Positions 3,431 through 18,841 of a DNA stretch of 18,841 bases are shown here, in pieces. The DNA comes from Halococcaceae archaeon (GTDB taxonomy: Archaea; Halobacteriota; Halobacteria; Halobacteriales; Halalkalicoccaceae), in NCBI GenBank assembly GCA_007129135.1, contig SKWB01000394.1:1-18841 (forward strand), written 5' to 3'. Under the pieces are notes generated by a model. It was not told where the DNA came from. It did no database searches and saw only the letters and a program-made list of their open reading frames with translations. Each line of letters starts with the position of its first letter. Positions within the stretch are counted from its first letter, which is position 1. The position numbers and the translations under genes are program-made.

Positions 3431-3454
3431 GTGACTGTTCTCGCCAGAACGTTC

Positions 3455-5092
3455 ATGCGTTCAAATTCACGGCGATCCTTCCTCCGATCGGTCGGAGTCG
3501 CCGGTGCGATCGGTTCGGCATCACTCGCTGGCTGTTTCGGCATCGACGAGGGCGACGACGAGGAGGTCGGCGAAGAGGTCCCCGAGATACAGTTCGTCTA
3601 TCCGACGTCGGGTGCGAACCCCGACCGGAGCGAACTCGGCGGACTCATCGCGGACAACATGGAGGAGATCGGCTTCGAGGTAGACCGTCAGGAACTCGAT
3701 TTCGACCCGCACGTCGACCAGACGGTGGGCAACCACGACTTCGACGTCTCGCTGCTCGGCTGGGGTGGGACTCCCGAGCGGATCGACCCACACATCTTCC
3801 TGATGGACATGCACCACTCGGACTTCACGGGCGAGGGTGGGCGGAACACACCGGGGTACGAGAACCCCGACTACGACGAACTGGCCGAAGCACAGGCACA
3901 GGAAGTCGACGAGGAGGCCCGTCGCGATATCGTCTTCGAGGCCCAGGCGATGCTCGCCGAGGACCAGCCGCGGTGTTACATCGCGAACGAGGGCGGCGAC
4001 CACCCGTACAACTCCGAACGGCTCGAGAGCGTGAACCCGACGCTCGGGGAGGGGCTCAACGGCTTCTGGAACTTCATGCTGGCCGAGCCGGCGGACGACG
4101 TCGACCAGGTGACCTTCGGCTACTCCTCGGACATCATCTCGCTGAACCCGATGCAGGACCTGGCGACGCCGGACCGACAGTTCATCCGGCTCATCTACGA
4201 CCAGCTCTATCGCTTCGGCGAGGAGGGCGAGCCGATCCCGTGGCTCGCGGAGGACGACCCGGAGATCGACGAGGACGGGACCACCTTCACCGTCCAGATC
4301 AGGGAGGGCCACAGCTTCCACGACGGCGAGGAGGTCACCATCGACGACGTGCTCTTCTCGTACGAACTGTTCGCGGAGTACTCGCCGACCTACTCGGTCT
4401 ATCTCGACCCGATCGAGGAGATGGAGACTGACGGTAACGAGATCACGTTCCACCTGAGCGAGCCGGACGCGACGTTCACGCGCAACGCGCTGGCACAGAT
4501 CTACATCTTCCCCGAGCACATCTGGTCGGAGATCGACGACCCGACCCAGCAGGACGACGAGGAGTACATCGGCAGCGGGCCGTTCCAGTTCCAGGCCTGG
4601 GAGCGCGAGGTTGAGATGCAGCTGACCAGCTTCGACGACCACTTCGAGCCGCCGGTGATGGATACGCTCATCCGCGTGCCCGGCGACGAGGACGCGCTCA
4701 TGGACCAGATCGAGGCCCACGAGATCGACATGCTCGGGAACGACCCGACGCCGACGCAGGCCGACCGGATGGACGAAGACCCCGACATCGGGCTCGCGAC
4801 GTTCGAGGCGATCGGTCACGCGAAGCTCGCGTACAACATGCGTCGCGATCACATGGACGACGTCCACATCCGCCGGGCGATCTCCTACTGCGTCCCGAAG
4901 GAGGCGTTCATAGAGGACATCCGAGGCGGGATGGGAACGGTGACACACTCGCCGATCGCACCCGTCCTCGAGGACTGGCACAACCCGGACGTGATGGAGT
5001 TCACCGAGGACCTCGATGCAGCGAGGGAGGAACTCGAAGAGGGCGAGTACGTCTGGGACGGCGACGACCAGCTCCACTACCCGGCGGAGTAG
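3455..5092 (+). CDS. ABC transporter substrate-binding lipoprotein (SBP_bac_5 family), circularly permuted
   Basis: The gene encodes a 545-residue secreted lipoprotein that binds peptide or another solute outside the cell and delivers it to the permeases encoded next. The start MRSNSRRSFLRSVG gives a Tat signal (RR at 6-7) ending in lipobox SLAGC, with the lipidated Cys at 27; the GTG at 3431 would add eight residues in front of the signal. Domain order is unusual. Residues about 43-212 match the normal C-terminal segment of the family (FDVSLLGWGG, PGYENPDYDEL, EAQAMLAEDQP, then LNGFWNF). Residues from about 216 match the normal N-terminus (SLNP, LIYDQLYRFGEEGEPIPWLAE, REGHSFHDGEEVTIDDVLFSYE) and continue to EEGEYVWDGDDQLHYPAE. 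That is the point in canonical members from which the moved segment would follow. It is the first gene of the operon. Binding of peptides is inferred from the family only. Confidence 0.92.
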   Translation: MRSNSRRSFLRSVGVAGAIGSASLAGCFGIDEGDDEEVGEEVPEIQFVYPTSGANPDRSELGGLIADNMEEIGFEVDRQELDFDPHVDQTVGNHDFDVSLLGWGGTPERIDPHIFLMDMHHSDFTGEGGRNTPGYENPDYDELAEAQAQEVDEEARRDIVFEAQAMLAEDQPRCYIANEGGDHPYNSERLESVNPTLGEGLNGFWNFMLAEPADDVDQVTFGYSSDIISLNPMQDLATPDRQFIRLIYDQLYRFGEEGEPIPWLAEDDPEIDEDGTTFTVQIREGHSFHDGEEVTIDDVLFSYELFAEYSPTYSVYLDPIEEMETDGNEITFHLSEPDATFTRNALAQIYIFPEHIWSEIDDPTQQDDEEYIGSGPFQFQAWEREVEMQLTSFDDHFEPPVMDTLIRVPGDEDALMDQIEAHEIDMLGNDPTPTQADRMDEDPDIGLATFEAIGHAKLAYNMRRDHMDDVHIRRAISYCVPKEAFIEDIRGGMGTVTHSPIAPVLEDWHNPDVMEFTEDLDAAREELEEGEYVWDGDDQLHYPAE

Positions 5093-5264: not shown

Positions 5265-6245
5265 ATGGGGCTGAGGGAGTACGTCGTCCGGCGAATCCTC
5301 CAGCTCGTACTGACGCTGTGGGCGCTCGTCACGCTACTGTTCGTGCTGTTTCGGATGGTCCCCGGCGATCCGACGACGCGGTTCGTCATGGAGTATCCGA
5401 CGGACGCAGAGCGCCAGGCACGAATCGAAGAGCTCGGCTTGAACGAACCGTTGTACGTCCAGTATCTCGAGTACATGGGCCAGCTCCTTCGGGGTGAGTT
5501 CGGCGACTCGACGCACTACCGCGAGCCGGTGAGCCAGCTCATCTTCCCGCTCTTTATGAACACGGTCGTACTCATGTTCACCGCGCTGCTCATCGCCTAC
5601 ACGATCGGGATCCTCTTCGGCGCGGCGATGGGTTGGCTCCGCGGGAGCCGGTTCGAACGCGGCGGGATCGTCGCCGTGTTGATGGCCCGCTCCTCGCCGG
5701 AGTTCTGGGTAGGTATCATCCTCGTCTGGCTGTTCGTCTTCCAGTTCGGGCTCTTCCCGCGGAGCGGGATCGGCGGCTACGGTGGGGAACTGACGATGAA
5801 CTTCGTCGACCGCTACGTCAACTTCGACTTCCTCCGGCATCTCTTCTTGCCGGCGCTGACGGGGGCGATCGTCTACCTGGCGACGCCAGCGCTGTTGATG
5901 CGGAACACGATGCTCGAGGTGCTGAAAGCCGACTTCGTCGAGATGAAGAAAGCCGAGGGACTGCCCGAGCGAACGGTTCTCTACAAACACGCCGCGCGGA
6001 ACTCCGTGCTCCCGCTGGTGACGGTCGCGGCGATCGCGACCGGCGCCGCGATGGGCGGTTCGGTCATCATCGAGACGGTGTTCAACTGGCCGGGCGTCGG
6101 CCGCGAGATGGTCGCCTCGGTGAGCCGGAACGACTACCCGGTGGCGATGGCCGCCTTCCTCCTCATGGGAACGTCCGTCATCGTCATGAACTTCGTCGCG
6201 GACCTGGCGTATCTCTACCTCGACCCACGGGTGAAGTACGAATGA
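5265..6245 (+). CDS. dppB: ABC transporter permease, DppB/OppB type
   Basis: The gene encodes a 326-residue membrane protein, the first of two permease subunits of the importer. The N-terminus REYVVRRILQLVLTLWALVTLLFVLFRMVPGDP is typical of DppB/OppB, with a first helix followed by the PGDP motif and a long extracytoplasmic loop containing GLNEPLYVQYLEYM and LLRGEFGDS. Five more hydrophobic helices follow. The EAA loop that contacts the ATPases is seen as the pattern DFVEMKKAEGLPERTVLYKH..ARNSVLP (about residues 225-253). The end FNWPGVGREMVASVSRNDYP is also family-typical. It starts at ATG 5265 after a 172-base gap and its stop overlaps the next start (ATGA). The gene symbol reflects family, not proven substrate. 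Confidence 0.95.
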   Translation: MGLREYVVRRILQLVLTLWALVTLLFVLFRMVPGDPTTRFVMEYPTDAERQARIEELGLNEPLYVQYLEYMGQLLRGEFGDSTHYREPVSQLIFPLFMNTVVLMFTALLIAYTIGILFGAAMGWLRGSRFERGGIVAVLMARSSPEFWVGIILVWLFVFQFGLFPRSGIGGYGGELTMNFVDRYVNFDFLRHLFLPALTGAIVYLATPALLMRNTMLEVLKADFVEMKKAEGLPERTVLYKHAARNSVLPLVTVAAIATGAAMGGSVIIETVFNWPGVGREMVASVSRNDYPVAMAAFLLMGTSVIVMNFVADLAYLYLDPRVKYE

Positions 6246-7231
6246 GCCTCGATACACCCTCCGAATCGACCGCCGCACAGGCCGAAGGGGGAACCGAATC
6301 GATCGATCGACGCAAACTCCGCTGGCGTCGTCGGCTGAACGCACTGCGTAGCTGGGGGAGCCTCCTGAAGGAGGACCGACTGGGCCAGATCGGCCTGGCC
6401 ATCCTCGCCTTCTTCATCCTCGTCGGGATCTTCGCCCGGCCGATCACCGTCGAGATCGGCCCCGTCTGGTCCCAGGTCCAGCCGTTCTCGCTGGCGCCAC
6501 ACGGCTACACCGATCGGGTCGCGACCGAGGGCCTCCACGGGCCGACGTGGGCACACCCCTTCGGGACGACCGACCTCGGTCGAGACGTCCTCTCACAGGT
6601 GATCATCGGCACACGTGCAACGCTCATCGTCGGCACGATAGCGGCGTTCATGGCCGTCTTCATCGGCGCGAACGTCGGCATCGTGAGCGCGTACTACGGC
6701 GGCTGGGTCGACGACGTCCTGATGCGGATCACCGACATCGTCTACGGCGTCCCGTTTCTGCCCTTCGCGATCGCGCTGGTGTTCATCCTCGGCGCGACCC
6801 TCGTGAACGTCATCGTCGCGATCGTGTTGATCCTCTGGCGCGGGACCGCACGCGTCGTCCGCTCCCAGGTACTGAGCCACAAACAACGACCCTACGTCGA
6901 GAGCGCGCGCGCGATCGGGGCGAGCGACTTCCGGATCATGTACGTCCAGATCATGCCGAACGTCTTACCGCTCATCTCGCTCTACGCCGCGTTCGCGGTC
7001 GCCTGGGCGGTCATCGCGGAGGCGAGTCTCTCGTTTCTCGGCCTCGGTCCACAGGGGATGATCTCGTGGGGTGAGATCATCTACGACGTCCGAAGCGCGG
7101 GGGCGTTGCGAGAGGCGTGGTGGTGGGTCTTCCCGCCGGGGATCGCCATCATGCTGTTCGTGATGTCGGTGTTCTTCATCGGCCGCTCGCTGGAGAAAGT
7201 CGTCAACCCCGATCTCCGTCACGGAAAGTAA
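6242..7231 (+). CDS. dppC: ABC transporter permease, DppC/OppC type
   Basis: The gene encodes a 329-residue membrane protein, the second permease subunit. The start ATG 6242 overlaps the dppB stop by the ATGA arrangement, so the two are translationally coupled. After a charged cytoplasmic N-tail, the first helix GQIGLAILAFFILVGIFA precedes an extracytoplasmic segment with HPFGTTDLGRDVLSQVIIGT, the hallmark of DppC/OppC. Further helices follow, with DDVLMRITDIVYGVPFLP and an EAA-type loop YVESARAIGASDFRIMYVQI. The C-terminus SLSFLGLGPQGMISWGEII, later FFIGRSLEKVVNPDLR, is canonical. The length is normal. No defects are seen. The symbol is by family; transported solute unknown. Confidence 0.95.
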   Translation: MSLDTPSESTAAQAEGGTESIDRRKLRWRRRLNALRSWGSLLKEDRLGQIGLAILAFFILVGIFARPITVEIGPVWSQVQPFSLAPHGYTDRVATEGLHGPTWAHPFGTTDLGRDVLSQVIIGTRATLIVGTIAAFMAVFIGANVGIVSAYYGGWVDDVLMRITDIVYGVPFLPFAIALVFILGATLVNVIVAIVLILWRGTARVVRSQVLSHKQRPYVESARAIGASDFRIMYVQIMPNVLPLISLYAAFAVAWAVIAEASLSFLGLGPQGMISWGEIIYDVRSAGALREAWWWVFPPGIAIMLFVMSVFFIGRSLEKVVNPDLRHGK

Positions 7232-7235
7232 GACC

Positions 7236-8291
7236 ATGACACTACTCACCATAGACGGCCTGAAGATGTACTACCGGAGCGACGACGGCTACGTCCGCGC
7301 GGCCGACGACATCAACCTCGAACTCGAGCGCGGTCAGACGCTCGGTCTGGTCGGCGAGAGCGGCTCCGGGAAGACCACGATCGCACGGTCGGTCATCCGA
7401 CTGCTCCCCGACAACGCGGAGGTGATCGACGGGTCGATCGACTTCGATGGGACGGAGATCACCGAGCTGAGCGAACGGGCACTCAGAAAGCAGATCCGCT
7501 GGCAGGAGGTCTCGATGATCCCGCAGAACGCGATGAACTCGTTCGATCCGGTCTACACGGTCGGCCAGCAGATCGTCCAGGTGATCAGATACCACGAGGA
7601 CGGCGTCTCGAAGAAGGAGGCCAAAGACCGAGGGCGCAGGCTATTCGGGGAACTCGGGATCGACCCCGATCGCGTCGACGACTACCCACACCAGTTCTCG
7701 GGGGGGATGGCCCAGCGGGCGATGATCGCGCTGGCGCTCTGTCTCGAACCCAAGCTGATCCTCGCCGACGAACCCACGACCGCCCTCGACGTCGTGATTC
7801 AGGACCGGATCCTGGAGACGATCACGGGGATGCAAGAGGAGATCAACAGCGCGATGATCCTGATCACACACGACATCTCCGTCGTCAGCGAGACATCGGA
7901 CCGGATCGCCGTCTGTTACGGTGGACGGATCGTCGAACAGGCCGACGCCGAGACGATCATCACGAACCCGCGACACCCGTACACGCTCGGGCTCCGAAAC
8001 GCGTTCCCGGATATCGGTGACACCGACACCGATCTCGTCTCGATCCCCGGGACGCCGCCCGAACTCGTCGACCCCGGTGAGGGCTGCCGGTTCGCCCCCC
8101 GGTGTCCCTTCGCCGTCGACGAGTGCTGGGACGTGACTCCCCAGCCGGAGGAGTTCGACGACGGCCACATCGTCGAGTGCCACCGCGCCGACGAGGCCGA
8201 CGAACTCAGAGAGCGCGCCGAGCAGAAAGAGACCTGGGAGGAAGTGAGAGAGCGTCCCTCCCAGCCACAGGGGGCCGGTGGTCGCCGATGA
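7236..8291 (+). CDS. dppD: ABC transporter ATP-binding protein, DppD/OppD type
   Basis: The gene encodes a 351-residue cytoplasmic ATPase that powers the importer together with the next gene product. Visible motifs are Walker A GESGSGKTT (residues 40-48), Q-loop near IPQNAMNS (95-102), signature FSGGMAQR (154-161), Walker B LILADEP (174-180) and the H-loop histidine 212 (LITHD). The C-terminal oligopeptide-type extension carries cysteines at 284, 290, 297 and 315 in the order GCRFAPRC, DECW, VECH. In some DppD proteins this cluster holds an iron-sulfur centre, and all four cysteines are present here. Start ATG 7236 lies four bases after the dppC stop, and the stop overlaps the next start by ATGA. 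Confidence 0.96.
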   Translation: MTLLTIDGLKMYYRSDDGYVRAADDINLELERGQTLGLVGESGSGKTTIARSVIRLLPDNAEVIDGSIDFDGTEITELSERALRKQIRWQEVSMIPQNAMNSFDPVYTVGQQIVQVIRYHEDGVSKKEAKDRGRRLFGELGIDPDRVDDYPHQFSGGMAQRAMIALALCLEPKLILADEPTTALDVVIQDRILETITGMQEEINSAMILITHDISVVSETSDRIAVCYGGRIVEQADAETIITNPRHPYTLGLRNAFPDIGDTDTDLVSIPGTPPELVDPGEGCRFAPRCPFAVDECWDVTPQPEEFDDGHIVECHRADEADELRERAEQKETWEEVRERPSQPQGAGGRR

Positions 8292-9610
8292 CGGTCGTCT
8301 CGGACGCCGATATCCACTCACGGCGACAGGGCGACGTGAAACTCGGCCTGGAGGGCGTGGACAAACACTTCACCGTCAACCGGGGGGTCCTCGCTCGGAT
8401 CCTTCGGGGCGAGTCCTCGGAGTACGTCCACGCCGTCGACGACGTCAGCCTGGCGATCAGGGACGGCGAGGCGTTCGGCCTGGCTGGGGAGTCGGGCTGC
8501 GGGAAGACGACGCTCGGGAAGACGGCGATCAAGCTCCACGAGCCGACGAACGGTCGGATCACCTTCGACGGCGAGGACATCACCGATATCACCGGCAGCG
8601 AACTGAAAGCGTTCCGTCGAGAGGCCCAGATCATCCACCAGAACCCCTACGACTCGATCAACCCCAGGTTCACCGTCTACGAGTGGGTCAAAGAGCCCCT
8701 CATCGTCCACGGGATCGGTTCGGAGGAGGAACAGGACGCCCGCGTCCTCAGGACGCTCGAGATGGCCGGGCTCGAGCCGCCGGAACTCTACGCCAAGGAG
8801 TATCCGAGCGAACTCAGCGGGGGAGAACGCCAGCGGGTCGGCATCGCCCGCGCGCTCGTTCTGGAGCCGTCGTTCCTCCTGGCCGACGAGCCAGCGAGCA
8901 TGCTCGACGTCTCCATCCGGGCGAGCATCCTCGAGGTGTTCGATCAGCTGCAGACGGAGCTGGGGCTGACCGCGCTCTACATCAGTCACGACCTCTCCCT
9001 GTTGAAACACGTCTGTGACCGTATCGGGATCATGTACCTCGGTCAGCTCGTCGAGGTCGGCCCGGCGAACGACATCATCGACGACCCGCAACACCCGTAC
9101 ACGCAGGCGCTCGTCTCCTCCGTCCCGCGCGTCGATCCGAAGGCGAAACGGGACAAGATCCGGCTCGTCGGGGAGGTCCCGGACGCGGTCGAAGTGCCCA
9201 GTGGCTGCCGGTTCCATCCCCGGTGTCCGAGTGTCGTTCCACCCGCCGACGTCGAACTGGACCAGGAGGTCTGGCGGTCGGTCGCGACCCTCCGTGACGA
9301 CCTCGCGAAAGACGACCTGGCGCTCTACGACGAGGAAGCGACCGATCCGGCGCGGATCAGGGAGACTTACGACGTCCCGAACGAACTAGCGGATCCCACA
9401 GTCGACTCGCTCGTCGCGGACGCCCTCGCGGAGTACGTCTCCGATGGTGAGGGCGAGTCGATCGCCCGGCTCCAGGAGGCGCTCGAGAGCCCGTGCGAGC
9501 GGGGAGCGATCCCGACCTACCGGATCACGGAGGTCCAGCGCGCGAAGTGCATCCTCCACGACCCTGCGGGGCCGTACGACGTCTCCGCGGTGGAGACCGA
9601 ATCCGACTGA
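8288..9610 (+). CDS. dppF: ABC transporter ATP-binding protein, DppF/OppF type, with extended C-terminus
   Basis: The gene encodes a 440-residue cytoplasmic ATPase, partner of the preceding ATPase. Motifs are Walker A GESGCGKTT (68-76), HQNPYDSINPRF after the Q-loop (117-128), signature LSGGERQR (176-183), Walker B FLLADEP (196-202) and H-loop His 234. The protein is about 100 residues longer than bacterial DppF. The C-terminal cysteine module is split, with C307 and C313 (GCRFHPRC) followed by an acidic segment of about 90 residues before C403 and C421. I believe such long tails occur in other haloarchaeal members. The start ATG 8288 overlaps the dppD stop; the open frame upstream of it lies inside dppD and is ignored. 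This is the last gene of the operon. Confidence 0.95.
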   Translation: MTVVSDADIHSRRQGDVKLGLEGVDKHFTVNRGVLARILRGESSEYVHAVDDVSLAIRDGEAFGLAGESGCGKTTLGKTAIKLHEPTNGRITFDGEDITDITGSELKAFRREAQIIHQNPYDSINPRFTVYEWVKEPLIVHGIGSEEEQDARVLRTLEMAGLEPPELYAKEYPSELSGGERQRVGIARALVLEPSFLLADEPASMLDVSIRASILEVFDQLQTELGLTALYISHDLSLLKHVCDRIGIMYLGQLVEVGPANDIIDDPQHPYTQALVSSVPRVDPKAKRDKIRLVGEVPDAVEVPSGCRFHPRCPSVVPPADVELDQEVWRSVATLRDDLAKDDLALYDEEATDPARIRETYDVPNELADPTVDSLVADALAEYVSDGEGESIARLQEALESPCERGAIPTYRITEVQRAKCILHDPAGPYDVSAVETESD

Positions 9611-9695: not shown

Positions 9696-9790
9696 CACCG
9701 GTTAGCTACCGATCGGCACACGATCTGTCGTGACTGTTCGTGATTCCTCAAACACAGGATAGAAGTACACGCCTCTCGTAGGTGAAAAGT

Positions 9791-11206
9791 ATGAACAGAA
9801 TGCCCTCTCGACGGACGTTCCTGGCAGTGGTTGGTGCAGCTTCGGTCGGCCTCGCCGGCTGTTCGGACGAGAACGGGACGGACGACGAAGCTGGTGACGA
9901 CGACCCGGACGCCGACGATGGAAACGGAGAGAATGGAGACGACGGAAACGGCGAGGAGGAGACGCCCGACGAACCGGAGGACGTCACCGCACCGGGTATC
10001 GAACACGGGACGCTCGTTTCCGACTTCAGTGAGGATCTCGATTCGTGGATCTCGATGACCGGCGAGGACCTCGTCGAAGGCGACTCCGACGAGGCGCTCG
10101 TCGGTGACACGGCCGCACTCGTCCGCGGAGGTGGAGAGCGCGCGGGGGTCTTCCGGTCGTTCCAGGAGTTCGACGCCGAAGACCAGCACGTCTCGTTCGC
10201 GGTCAAACTCGAGGAGCCCATCGGCGGTCGCGTGAACGTCGAGATGCTCGCGCCGTTCCAGAGCGACAGCGTGATCACCCGCCGACGTATCCCGAGCGAC
10301 CTCGACGGCTGGATGCGCATGGACGTCGGCTACACCCAGGACCGCGGCGAACCAGACTTCGGTGACATCCAGGAGATGCGGATCTGGGTCGACGCCGCGG
10401 CCGAAGACGGGGAGGTCGACGACGACGAGGAGGCCGCGGACGAACTCGACGAGGACGAGATCGAAGAGGAGATCGACGAGGACGACGAGGAGGTCGAGGA
10501 GGAGGACATCGAGGACGAGACGGTCCGGTTCATGCTCGACGACCTGCGGAGCACCCCCGCGGCCGACAACGGCCAGGTGATCATGACCTTCGACGGCGGC
10601 TTCGAGTCGCACTACTCGACGCTGTTCGACCTCATGGAGGATCGTGACCTCCAGGGCGTCATCGGGATCGTTCCGCCCACCGTGAACGTCGGGGGCCGGC
10701 TCTCGATCGACCAGATGCGCGAGATGCGCGATGCGGGCTGGGATATGGCCTCGTTCCCGCTTCGAAGCGACGCGCTGCCGGAGATGGACTCCGGGGAGAA
10801 AGAGCAGGTGATCGAGGGCGATCAGTCCTACCTCGAGGGTCGCGGGTTCGAAGACGGTGCGCGAACGTTCCTCGCACCCTACCACCGCGTCGACGCCGAG
10901 TCGCTCGAGATCGTCCGCGAGGTCCACGACTGTTCGATGACCTTCGGTGGGACGCCCAACGCCGCACCGCCCGCGGACCCGCACATGCTCTCGCGGATCA
11001 ACGCGACCGACATGAACGCGGTCGAGCAGTTCACCGAACTCGCAGAACGCCACAACCAGCTGCTCGTGCTCAGGCTCACCGAGGTCGGTGACGACGGGGA
11101 TCTCGAAGAGGACGAGTTCGAGGACCTACTGGACTACCTCGAGGACTCCGAGCTCGATATGGTGACCGCGAGCGAGATGCTCGATCAGCGAAACGAGCTG
11201 TTCTGA
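9791..11206 (+). CDS. Tat lipoprotein with degenerate polysaccharide-deacetylase (NodB) fold
   Basis: The gene encodes a 471-residue exported lipoprotein. MNRMPSRRTFLAVVG is a Tat signal ending in LAGC (Cys 24), followed by an acidic tether to residue 66. Residues about 67-250 form a beta-rich domain beginning DVTAPGIEHGTLVSDFS that resembles a carbohydrate-binding-like module. A 40-residue run of almost only Asp and Glu (about 203-243) interrupts its end. Residues 261-471 are NodB-like with VIMTFDGGFESHY at 263-275. The family's second Asp (TFDDG), which binds metal, is Gly here. The usual HxxxH region is replaced by ASFPLRSD (320-327), so metal-dependent deacetylation is unlikely. The ATG at 9791 is preferred over the GTG at 9782 because GGTGA just before it is a good ribosome-binding site. 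A paralogue lies at 12896-14167. Confidence 0.85.
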   Translation: MNRMPSRRTFLAVVGAASVGLAGCSDENGTDDEAGDDDPDADDGNGENGDDGNGEEETPDEPEDVTAPGIEHGTLVSDFSEDLDSWISMTGEDLVEGDSDEALVGDTAALVRGGGERAGVFRSFQEFDAEDQHVSFAVKLEEPIGGRVNVEMLAPFQSDSVITRRRIPSDLDGWMRMDVGYTQDRGEPDFGDIQEMRIWVDAAAEDGEVDDDEEAADELDEDEIEEEIDEDDEEVEEEDIEDETVRFMLDDLRSTPAADNGQVIMTFDGGFESHYSTLFDLMEDRDLQGVIGIVPPTVNVGGRLSIDQMREMRDAGWDMASFPLRSDALPEMDSGEKEQVIEGDQSYLEGRGFEDGARTFLAPYHRVDAESLEIVREVHDCSMTFGGTPNAAPPADPHMLSRINATDMNAVEQFTELAERHNQLLVLRLTEVGDDGDLEEDEFEDLLDYLEDSELDMVTASEMLDQRNELF

Positions 11207-12895: not shown

Positions 12896-14167
12896 CTACA
12901 GGGAGGAGTGCTGATCCACCGTCTCGAGGAGGTCACTGGCGGTCAGCACCTCGATCTCGCGTGCATCGAGGAAGGCGACGAGTTCACGGAGATACGCGGT
13001 CGAGGAGGTGTCCTCGGCGTCGGTGGTGAGGGTCCCGAACCGGAGGACGAGCAACTGGCCGTACGCTGTCGCCAGTTCCACGAGTCGCGGGACCACGGCC
13101 GAATCGGTGCCGTCGGCCATCGAGAGGGTGTGAAGATCCGATGGCGGAAACGCGTTCGGAGCACCGCCGGAGAGAAACCCCGTCTCGTGGGTGTTCCGAA
13201 CCGCCTCGAGCGTCGAGGCGTCGATCCTGTTTCCAGGCGCGAGGAAGTGTCGAGCGCCACCTTCGAATCCGAGGTCCGCGAGCCTCCGTGAGTCCGCTTC
13301 GATCACCGTTCGCTGGTCGTCCGCTGAGAGCTCTGGAAGTGGATCGCTTCGCAGGGGATACGATGCGACGTCCCATCCGCGTTCTCCGAACGTCTCGAGA
13401 TAGTCGAGCGGGAGGCCACCCGGCTCGTCGATCAGCGAGGGCCTGACCCCGAGCACCCCGGAACTGTCGCTCTCCTCGGTGATCTCGAGTATCTCGTCGT
13501 AGGCGGACCCGGGTCCGCCATCGAACACGAGGACGACGCCCCCGCTCCCGTGGCTCTGCGTCGCCCGCAGGTCGTCGAGCGTGAACCCGATCCGCTCGTC
13601 GCTCGCGCGCTCGGCCCAGATCCGTATCCCCTCGACGCTCGTGTGGTCGGGCTCTCCCTCTCGATCGGTGTAGCCGACGTCGAGGCGAAGCCAGTCGTCC
13701 AGCTCCGGCGGAACACGCCGGCTGCTGATCAGGCTGTGATCCGCATCGGGTGCCTGACACTCGACGGTGACGGTCACGTCGGCCGGTTCGTCGAGGGCCA
13801 GCGCGACCGAGAGCTGTCGGTCGTCGAGGTCGAGTGGCTCGTCGAACGCACGGTAGACGCCCGCACGCCGACCGTTCTCGTTCCCCACCCAGAGCGCCCG
13901 ATCCCCGACCAGCGTCCGATCCTCGGTCACCGAATGGGTGCCCTCGATCGCGGTCCAGACGCTCGGTTCCGCGAAGTCGTCGAGGAGGTCGCCGTGAGTG
14001 AGTCCCGGAGCGGTCACGTCGCCCTCGGAGACCGTCTCCGGACGGTACTCAGCGCCCGGCCCACGGAGCGCTTCCTCCCAAGGCATCTCACCGGTACAGC
14101 CGGTGACCCCGACGAACGAACCCCCGAGTGCTGCGAGCACTGCCCGTCTAGGGACTCTCGTGTTCAT
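12896..14167 (-). CDS. Tat-like lipoprotein with degenerate polysaccharide-deacetylase (NodB) fold, paralogue
   Basis: The gene encodes a 423-residue exported lipoprotein, paralogous to the product of 9791-11206. MNTRVPRRAVLAALGG is a Tat-like signal with a C at 24 (VTGC). The N-terminal module starts DVTAPGLTHGDLLDDF at 50-65, and the NodB-like part runs from about 209. It has VVLVFDGGPGSAYDE (211-225) where active enzymes have TFDDG, and VASYPLRSDPLPEL (267-280) in place of the metal-binding histidines. Both replacements are shared with the paralogue, so they are conserved features of the pair. It lacks the paralogue's acidic insert. The ATG at 14167 is chosen because it begins the signal peptide and lies two bases after the stop of the upstream membrane-protein gene. 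The frame is open further upstream but there overlaps that gene. The function is unknown; binding of a surface glycan is a guess. Confidence 0.85.
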   Translation of the reverse strand: MNTRVPRRAVLAALGGSFVGVTGCTGEMPWEEALRGPGAEYRPETVSEGDVTAPGLTHGDLLDDFAEPSVWTAIEGTHSVTEDRTLVGDRALWVGNENGRRAGVYRAFDEPLDLDDRQLSVALALDEPADVTVTVECQAPDADHSLISSRRVPPELDDWLRLDVGYTDREGEPDHTSVEGIRIWAERASDERIGFTLDDLRATQSHGSGGVVLVFDGGPGSAYDEILEITEESDSSGVLGVRPSLIDEPGGLPLDYLETFGERGWDVASYPLRSDPLPELSADDQRTVIEADSRRLADLGFEGGARHFLAPGNRIDASTLEAVRNTHETGFLSGGAPNAFPPSDLHTLSMADGTDSAVVPRLVELATAYGQLLVLRFGTLTTDAEDTSSTAYLRELVAFLDAREIEVLTASDLLETVDQHSSL

Positions 14168-14169
14168 CC

Positions 14170-14541
14170 TCACAGCCGGGTTCGCTCCGAGCGACGCTCC
14201 GGGTTTCGTCTCCCCGTTCGCAGGCGTTCGAGTGCGATTCGACCGGCCCAGACGAGGAGGACCGACAGGAGGTAAAAGTAGAGGAGCAACAGCACCGTCG
14301 CGACGCTCTGACCGCCACCCACCCACGAGTAGACGGTCCACCACGGGATCCCGAGGTTCAACACCGGCGCGGTGAACGCGACGATCAGCGCGTTCCGACC
14401 GAGGTTCAGGACGACGAGGTTGCTGAGGACGAACCAGCAGAGCAGAAAGAGCGTCGTCTTGAGGGCCGTCCCACTCGAAAGGAGCCTCCACCAGGGCTGG
14501 GGCTCCGAATCTCGCGCCGAGAGTGACGGTCGTTCGGTCAT
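14170..14541 (-). CDS. Small membrane protein, unknown function
   Basis: The gene encodes a 123-residue protein with three hydrophobic stretches: about 28-45 (LKTTLFLLCWFVLSNLVVL), 49-66 (RNALIVAFTAPVLNLGI) and 79-99 (SVATVLLLLYFYLLSVLLVW). A strongly basic tail rich in Arg (101-122) follows, presumably on the cytoplasmic side. I do not recognise the family. Its stop is two bases before the ATG of the lipoprotein gene, and the sequence GTGAGG before that ATG can serve as ribosome-binding site, so the two form an operon. It may anchor, export or partner the lipoprotein. Codon use and hydrophobic pattern support a real gene over the competing open frame on the same strand. Confidence 0.75.
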   Translation of the reverse strand: MTERPSLSARDSEPQPWWRLLSSGTALKTTLFLLCWFVLSNLVVLNLGRNALIVAFTAPVLNLGIPWWTVYSWVGGGQSVATVLLLLYFYLLSVLLVWAGRIALERLRTGRRNPERRSERTRL

Positions 14542-14591
14542 CGGTTCTCTCGGTCAATACAGGTCCCCGAAACGTGAATCTACGGAACGCA

Positions 14592-17910: not shown

Positions 17911-18841
17911 CTACTCCTCTCGCGGGATCGCCTGTGCCTCGCCCGTTCCACGAGCGTCGGCGATCCCGACGTACTCCTCGCCGATCGAGAGCGCCTGGAT
18001 CGCACCGATGTCGCTCGGCTCGTCGTCCGTCTCGTAGCCGAGTTCGTCGAGTCCCCGCCGTGAGTCCTCCGGGAGAGTCGACTCCCAGCGCACGCTCGTC
18101 GATGCACCACTGAACACACGCGGTTCCGCTATGGCGGTCGCGGGGTCGACGCCGTGGGCGAGGACCCCTTGGAGGATCTGGGTGACGACGCTCGGGATCG
18201 TCGCGCCGCCGGAGCCACCGAGTGCCAGGATCGGCTCGCCGTCGTCGAGGACGATCATCGGGCTCAAGGTGCTCACTGGGCGCTTGTTCGCCGCGACGGA
18301 GTTCGGCCCGTCAGAGCTGAAATCGAAGTTCGTCAGCGAGTTCGAGAGGACGATCCCACGACCGGGAACGACGATCCCGCTCCCGAACGGCATCGAGAGC
18401 GTGCTCGAACACGAGACGACGTTCCCCTCGCTATCGGCGACCGAGAAGTGTGTCGTTCCCCCCTCGCGTGGCAGGCGGTCGCGCTCTCGTGACGGGTCGC
18501 CACTGCCGTCCTGGAACGTCCAGGGGTCGCCCGCTTCGACGGCCCGGTTCGCGACATCGGACTCGATCCCGTCTGCCCGCCGCGAGAGGTACAGCTCGTC
18601 GAGCAGCCCCTCGGTTGGGACGTCGACGACCGACGCGTCCCCGAGGTGAGCCCAGTTGTCCGCATACGCGAGGCGGGTCGCCTCGAGGAGTGCGTGATAC
18701 CGATCCGTCGAGTGACGGTCGAGTTCCCCCGCACCGAGCGTTTCGAGCAGTTTCAGGGCCTGGATCACGGTGATCCCGCTCGAGGGTGGCTGGGCTGTGA
18801 TACACGGACAGTCGTTCACTCGGCCGACGACCGGGTCGTCG
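17911..18841 (-). CDS. ggt: Gamma-glutamyltranspeptidase, C-terminal part (5' end outside window)
   Basis: About 310 residues are visible, with the N-terminus beyond the right edge. The product hydrolyses or transfers the gamma-glutamyl group of glutathione-like thiols; haloarchaea use gamma-glutamylcysteine. The visible start VVGRVNDCPCITAQPPSSGITVIQAL corresponds to the late large-subunit region (the PPSSGG segment of the family). The catalytic and self-cleavage threonine is in GGTTHFSVADSEGNVVS (coding near 18456). The small-subunit signatures STLSMPFGSGIVVPGRGI, KRPVSTLSPMIVLDDGEP and LALGGSGGATIPSVV follow. The stop at 17911 gives a normal end. A GTG at 18819 is an internal codon, not the start. 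Whether it is exported cannot be seen. Confidence 0.93.
   Translation of the reverse strand, partial: DDPVVGRVNDCPCITAQPPSSGITVIQALKLLETLGAGELDRHSTDRYHALLEATRLAYADNWAHLGDASVVDVPTEGLLDELYLSRRADGIESDVANRAVEAGDPWTFQDGSGDPSRERDRLPREGGTTHFSVADSEGNVVSCSSTLSMPFGSGIVVPGRGIVLSNSLTNFDFSSDGPNSVAANKRPVSTLSPMIVLDDGEPILALGGSGGATIPSVVTQILQGVLAHGVDPATAIAEPRVFSGASTSVRWESTLPEDSRRGLDELGYETDDEPSDIGAIQALSIGEEYVGIADARGTGEAQAIPREE

Follow-up and report, generated by a model that had tools for sequence, protein, structure and literature searches.

Does the gene at positions 3455..5092 of contig SKWB01000394.1, from a Halococcaceae archaeon (assembly GCA_007129135.1), encode a substrate-binding protein (SBP) with a rotated order of segments, and if so, how did this order arise and spread? 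An earlier note on the window, that is, the whole analyzed stretch of 18,841 nucleotides, had claimed that in this member of the SBP_bac_5 family (family 5, a very common binding-protein family) the segment that normally comes last (residues ~43-212) directly follows a retained Tat lipobox and precedes the normal N-terminal part (~216-545). The analysis described here bears out this claim: judging from sequence comparison, the protein is a genuine circular permutant of SBP_bac_5. Our overall reading, to which we assign a probability of roughly 0.88, is that the protein is the SBP of a complete Dpp/Opp-type importer and an old, true permutant of family 5 in which a loop of the C-lobe has been opened and which docks on its permeases in the usual manner. 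The features of the gene on which the argument rests are the following:

3455..5092, forward strand: circularly permuted SBP_bac_5 lipoprotein of 545 aa with an ATG start (an alternative in-frame GTG start at 3431 would give 553 aa)
3455..3541, forward strand: Tat-type signal with RR at residues 6-7 and the lipobox LAGC with Cys27, identified from the sequence
3566..3589, forward strand: new N-terminal edge of the fold, residues 38-45 (VGEEVPEI), with a strand at 38-41 in the predicted model
3581..4090, forward strand: segment B, residues 43-212, the canonical C-terminal third placed first (profile matches)
4079..4105, forward strand: joint between the old C-terminus and the old N-terminus, residues 209-217, without an extra linker domain
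4097..5089, forward strand: segment A, residues 215-545, the canonical N-terminal two-thirds placed last (profile matches)
5057..5089, forward strand: new C-terminal edge of the fold, with the strand LHYP at residues 540-543 in the predicted model

By homology, the protein is a member of SBP_bac_5 (PF00496; 204.6 bits against a cut-off of 32.4, E 3.2e-60), with matches in two stretches, the better of which aligns residues 259-539 with profile positions 1-285; the usual linear order is not kept, the segments being arranged as B-A. Apart from SBP_bac_5, searching Pfam up to E 10 yields a Tat signal only. In the search of solved protein chains, positions 50-342 of AppA (1xoc) align with residues 245-530 (independent E-value 3.8e-28) and positions 353-494 with residues 38-185 (4.1e-5), and the 86-row family profile compared with the solved chains gives 2.6e-65 for segment A and 1.1e-16 for segment B. 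When the protein is compared with a canonical reference profile of 537 positions, built from 27 canonical family 5 proteins, there is no single collinear match; instead, two matches in reversed order are obtained, with profile positions 377-521 corresponding to residues 44-194, followed by positions 39-368 corresponding to residues 211-537. Jointly, the two segments cover the canonical profile once, with the cut located between LHYP and VPEI, and the AppA and profile matches uphold the segment boundaries proposed earlier. The cut ends, which were said to join cleanly, indeed do so, with no linker domain at residues 209-217, and the retained lipobox is evident from the sequence, its Cys27 being invariant in 25 aligned sequences (the window SBP and 24 relatives). 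The fold predicted with AlphaFold2 is confident as one unit (predicted local distance difference test score 91.5, predicted template modeling score 0.87). Among the matches listed (60 of 115 profile matches), segment A is aligned with the N-terminal portion of each solved chain, that is, the solved proteins have the canonical order; no permuted solved structure is found among these matches or among the 50 rows in each of two structure searches. A tentative match of Glu108 to the position opposite the acidic residue that holds the dipeptide in DppA came from a 5.6-bit alignment and hand counting, and was not used.

The canonical family 5 (cluster C) SBPs AppA (1xoc), NikZ (4oeu, 8efz) and DppA (1dpp, 8z1y) belong to the same sequence family as the window SBP; the pieces of the fold are predicted to be the same, and the permease and ATPase partners are of the same kind, whereas the segment order in the window SBP is reversed and its termini would lie in the C-lobe. 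Natural permutation of an SBP is already known in cluster B: TpMglB-2 (Tp0684) of Treponema pallidum, for which the designation 'Type Ic / Cluster Bc' has been proposed, still binds ligand and changes shape, its relatives share the order, and its permease is similarly distributed (PMC4990184). The window SBP resembles TpMglB-2 in its circularly permuted order, but TpMglB-2 belongs to cluster B, binds sugar and is cut elsewhere, with a rearranged N-lobe and an added fourth hinge crossing (PMC4990184). By its sequence, the window SBP is not an MglB-like, cluster B protein: its Pfam match is SBP_bac_5, and its solved relatives are members of family 5. A permuted family 5 SBP is not reported among the titles listed in the literature searched, which mostly does not cover subscription journals and preprints.

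Could the order be an artifact of one genome? An assembly error or a local rearrangement would be conceivable in an assembly as fragmented as this one, with 400 contigs and a completeness of 70.87%, but the same order is carried by 47 relatives, independent genomes and complete plasmids. Because the rotated order recurs in other genomes, for example, on the complete plasmid 2 of Halalkalicoccus jeotgali B3, we reject assembly error, and the probability of any such explanation appears negligible. The 47 relatives retrieved by protein search (P0002-P0048) show 49-97% identity over 94-100% of the length, and half profiles detect the rotated order in all of them (47 of 47). The SBP is also permuted in each of the 15 annotated plasmid loci (L011-L015, L042-L051), including that of Ketogulonicigenium vulgare Y25, all retrieved with a permuted query. 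Ten matches from the genome of the window comprise four permuted ones (C328, C174, C385, C369), four canonical ones (C335, C275, C68 and C285, where the gene ends at the contig edge) and two that are unclassed.

As to spread, the order turned out to be widespread in haloarchaeal genomes and to cross domains. The family profile at E<=1e-60 finds a match in 72 of the 116 genomes of the window's class, and 71 of the 116 have at least one match that is collinear through the permuted order, the other (G061) matching segment A only; in this search, at most 12 candidates were scored per genome, and the order was read from the match ranges. At the DNA level, all 46 SBPs in 39 stretches taken from the class list (L072-L110) are permuted and all 22 SBPs in 20 canonical control stretches (L052-L071) are canonical, an SBP being called as an open reading frame (ORF) of at least 380 aa with 60 bits. 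A single-protein search at 1e-20, with four candidates scored as a rule, matched 199 of 292 genomes, counted regardless of order. Permuted members found in a search from a distant relative carry the names of Alphaproteobacteria, Rhodobacteraceae, Mesorhizobium, Tindallia, Alkaliphilus, Virgibacillus and others; the same cut is present in named Alphaproteobacteria and Firmicutes, and among plasmid matches in Microvirga, Neorhizobium, Roseomonas and Maritalea, the order was confirmed in the latter two.

Classification of 300 proteins by segment order yielded 141 of class 1 (the window's cut, at ~368|386 on the canonical profile by the medians), 36 of class 2 (cut at profile 228|230), four in a third bin, 118 canonical proteins and one unclassed; because the sample was drawn with permuted queries, these counts are not frequencies. 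In the third bin, P0060 and P0287 are cut near profile position 292, P0118 belongs to class 1 by half profiles, and P0214 is a partial protein of the class 2 kind. In the mixture-model tree of 90 rows (38 class 1, 14 class 2, 2 third-bin, 36 canonical), 37 of the 38 class 1 rows group together (support 99), as do all 14 class 2 rows (99), P0060 joins canonical P0063 (100), and P0287 joins canonical P0062 (97, long branches). A second tree, to which haloarchaeal loci were added and from which four canonical rows (P0059 among them) were removed, groups 38 of the 39 class 1 rows (98). These groupings indicate two or more permutations of family 5 in lineages with many members, and probably four or more in all; P0060, P0287 and P0228, which are single clusters, are less certain as further events. 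Class 1 itself, as far as these comparisons tell, is an ancient subfamily that spans archaea and bacteria and has transporters of its own. The trees being unrooted, one could alternatively suppose that family 5 started out with the permuted order and that the usual order is derived; but canonical proteins are spread over several distinct clades, and different cut sites turn up in yet other clades, so that the simplest reading is several departures from the canonical order, and the opposite polarity is highly improbable. The second permuted lineage, with the cut at 228|230, consists of P0053 and P0191-P0225, some named Bathyarchaeota and others metagenome proteins; the C-terminal end of P0053 carries an additional strand-rich domain and a helix resembling a membrane-spanning one.

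The operon of the window was described earlier as canonical and intact, and this description is correct: the SBP gene is accompanied by four genes with the expected domains, for five in all. These genes, together with one at the far end of the window, are:

5265..6245, forward strand: DppB/OppB-type permease (domain scan, permease tree)
6248..7231, forward strand: DppC/OppC-type permease (domain scan, permease tree; 32% of columns in the stretch used)
7236..8291, forward strand: DppD/OppD-type ATPase with oligo_HPY (domain scan)
8282..9610, forward strand: DppF/OppF-type ATPase with oligo_HPY (domain scan)
17911..18819, reverse strand: gamma-glutamyltranspeptidase, C-terminal portion (positions 223-512 of the 512-position profile), at the window end

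The two BPD_transp_1 permeases and two ATPases with oligo_HPY identify the operon as one of the Dpp/Opp type, and the SBP, two permeases and two ATPases are co-directional in all 21 near-relative loci, a set from which L019 was excluded because L002 already represents its contig. At 442 aa, the DppF-like ATPase is long, and ~120 residues follow its oligo_HPY match. In the DppB tree, the permeases of permuted SBPs (39) are separated from those of canonical SBPs (19) by a single change with support 91, and in the DppC tree (39 and 20, respectively) by a single change with support 95; these are quick trees with long-branch warnings, and all permeases on the canonical side belong to genomes of the window's class or to that of the window itself. 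Because the permeases split by SBP order with a single change, permease and permuted SBP seem to have travelled together. With respect to cargo, genes near the SBPs of annotated relatives encode, among others, hydantoinase/oxoprolinase, M20, M28 and M81 hydrolases and D-aminoacylases, along with creatininase, dipeptide epimerases and an aspartate/glutamate racemase-family protein; these neighbours may point to peptides and amino-acid derivatives. The window SBP is most likely an ordinary Dpp/Opp-type binder, with peptides or amino-acid derivatives as the predicted cargo. Such hydrolase neighbours are not close to the window operon itself; the gamma-glutamyltranspeptidase lies ~8 kb past it. 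Two lipoprotein-like ORFs of the window, 9782..11206 (forward strand) and 12896..14557 (reverse strand), are alike by eye; the former barely passes the Pfam cut-off for polysaccharide deacetylase (24.0 bits against 23.1), and the latter has no Pfam match at 0.001.

Several observations weigh against our overall reading. Order-bound structure aligners cover segment A only (residues ~212-545 against solved folds). The permease trees lack 46 class 1 and 5 canonical SBPs, for which neither permease was found under the rule applied (3' side of the SBP, within 5.5 kb). The near relatives of the window share no conserved cargo-related gene next to the transporter: across the 21 loci, beyond transporter genes and apparent out-of-frame shadows, which were not sorted individually, nothing exceeds about half of the loci. 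P0228, which has the class 1 cut and an end that resembles a membrane helix, is placed with class 2 in both trees described above, and an initial tree, made before these two, put the canonical P0059, on a long branch, within the permuted group; under the mixture model, P0059 is found among the canonical rows. The trees are quick and unrooted, come with long-branch warnings and include a subset of the proteins, and the segment B tree, with few columns, is poorly resolved, showing 4 class 1 label changes (starred branches force 1), compared with 2 in the segment A tree. The weak resolution of the segment B tree can also be taken in favour of a chimera, that is, segments B and A taken from two SBP genes and fused rather than one permuted gene, and the authors of the TpMglB-2 study voiced a similar doubt (PMC4990184). 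Against this origin, the two segments cover the canonical profile without overlap, each half tree has P0016 as the nearest of 85 rows and clusters the class label more strongly than any of 500 shuffles, and the fold is confidently predicted as one unit; a chimera accordingly seems improbable.

How might such a protein have originated, and how would it work? In canonical DppA and OppA, both termini are located in the N-lobe, and because of this, joining the old N- and C-termini would cost little. The chain would be opened in the C-lobe loop flanked by the strands LHYP and VPEIQFV, placing both new termini in the C-lobe, and the lipid anchor would exit from the C-lobe, not the N-lobe. The permutation would predate the spread of the subfamily over haloarchaea, Alphaproteobacteria and Firmicutes. 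The likeliest route would be a duplicated gene losing its outer parts; tandem duplication followed by partial loss, as suggested in the earlier note, remains plausible, and no intermediate was seen. Intergenic DNA on both sides of the SBP gene contains no relic of either half better than E 0.57, and two already permuted SBP genes stand in tandem at 7 of the 39 loci L072-L110. The ligand, likely a peptide or other amino-acid derivative, would be enclosed by the usual Venus-flytrap motion, and the protein would dock on the DppB/DppC-like permeases. In DppABCDF, the scoop motif of the permease sits in the cleft between the DppA lobes (PMC12136057); since the surface contacted by the scoop may be independent of chain order, our best guess is that the permuted SBP docks in the ordinary way.

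Selection for a shifted membrane anchor, that is, for tether geometry, as suggested for TpMglB-2 (PMC4990184), would be another explanation of the permutation. The haloarchaeal and Firmicute members inspected carry the lipobox, and a simple lipobox pattern is found in 72 of the 141 class 1 proteins; in the other 69, some of which may lack the true N-terminus, the pattern is not matched, and the six alphaproteobacterial members inspected (P0074, P0112, P0124, P0133, P0138, P0154) have no lipobox Cys, so that the order persists where no lipid anchor is present. Altered anchoring, raised in the earlier note, is thereby weakened as a driver and seems rather unlikely.

The most surprising side result is the pairing of the SBP with PAP2 phosphatases in a haloarchaeal branch. 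When the 39 stretches L072-L110 (~15-17 kb each) were searched with the permeases of the window, 33 of them yielded no Dpp-type permease; an ATPase match is present in 4 of these 33. In 31 of the 33, an ORF of one family directly follows the SBP, mostly overlapping it or a few bases away, and six such ORFs that were scanned all match PAP2_3 and PAP2. A PAP2-like ORF is next behind the SBP in 32 of 40 cases in the haloarchaeal branch, versus 1 of 45 other class 1 SBPs and 0 of 26 canonical SBPs as controls; the single control case is the copy on C369 of the window's own genome, whose follower also matches PAP2, and in the second tree this copy and 11 sampled branch rows form one group of 12 (100). 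At L040:3160-5841, in the window's own genome, a permuted SBP without nearby permeases is followed by a gene for a PAP2-type membrane phosphatase, and in the tandem SBP pairs the phosphatase gene mostly lies between them. Literature on the SBP-PAP2 pair was searched alongside that on permuted SBPs, and no listed title reports a permuted family 5 SBP. Tentatively, and at somewhat less than even odds, we propose a wider picture in which family 5 was permuted repeatedly, giving an ancient archaeal-bacterial subfamily with its own permeases, an archaeal lineage with another cut and scattered cases, and in which a haloarchaeal branch left transport and forms an undescribed ligand-binding/phosphatase unit with a PAP2-type membrane phosphatase.

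The precomputed Pfam label of the relatives is PF00496 alone, and their source names are mostly just substrate-binding protein; automatic annotation conceals the rotated order, and caution is due with order-bound structure searches, which cover only part of permuted proteins. Because the natural set is large, includes no fewer than two well-populated cut sites and comes with unpermuted relatives, the constraints that chain order, anchor position and lobe motion may place on SBP docking become testable.
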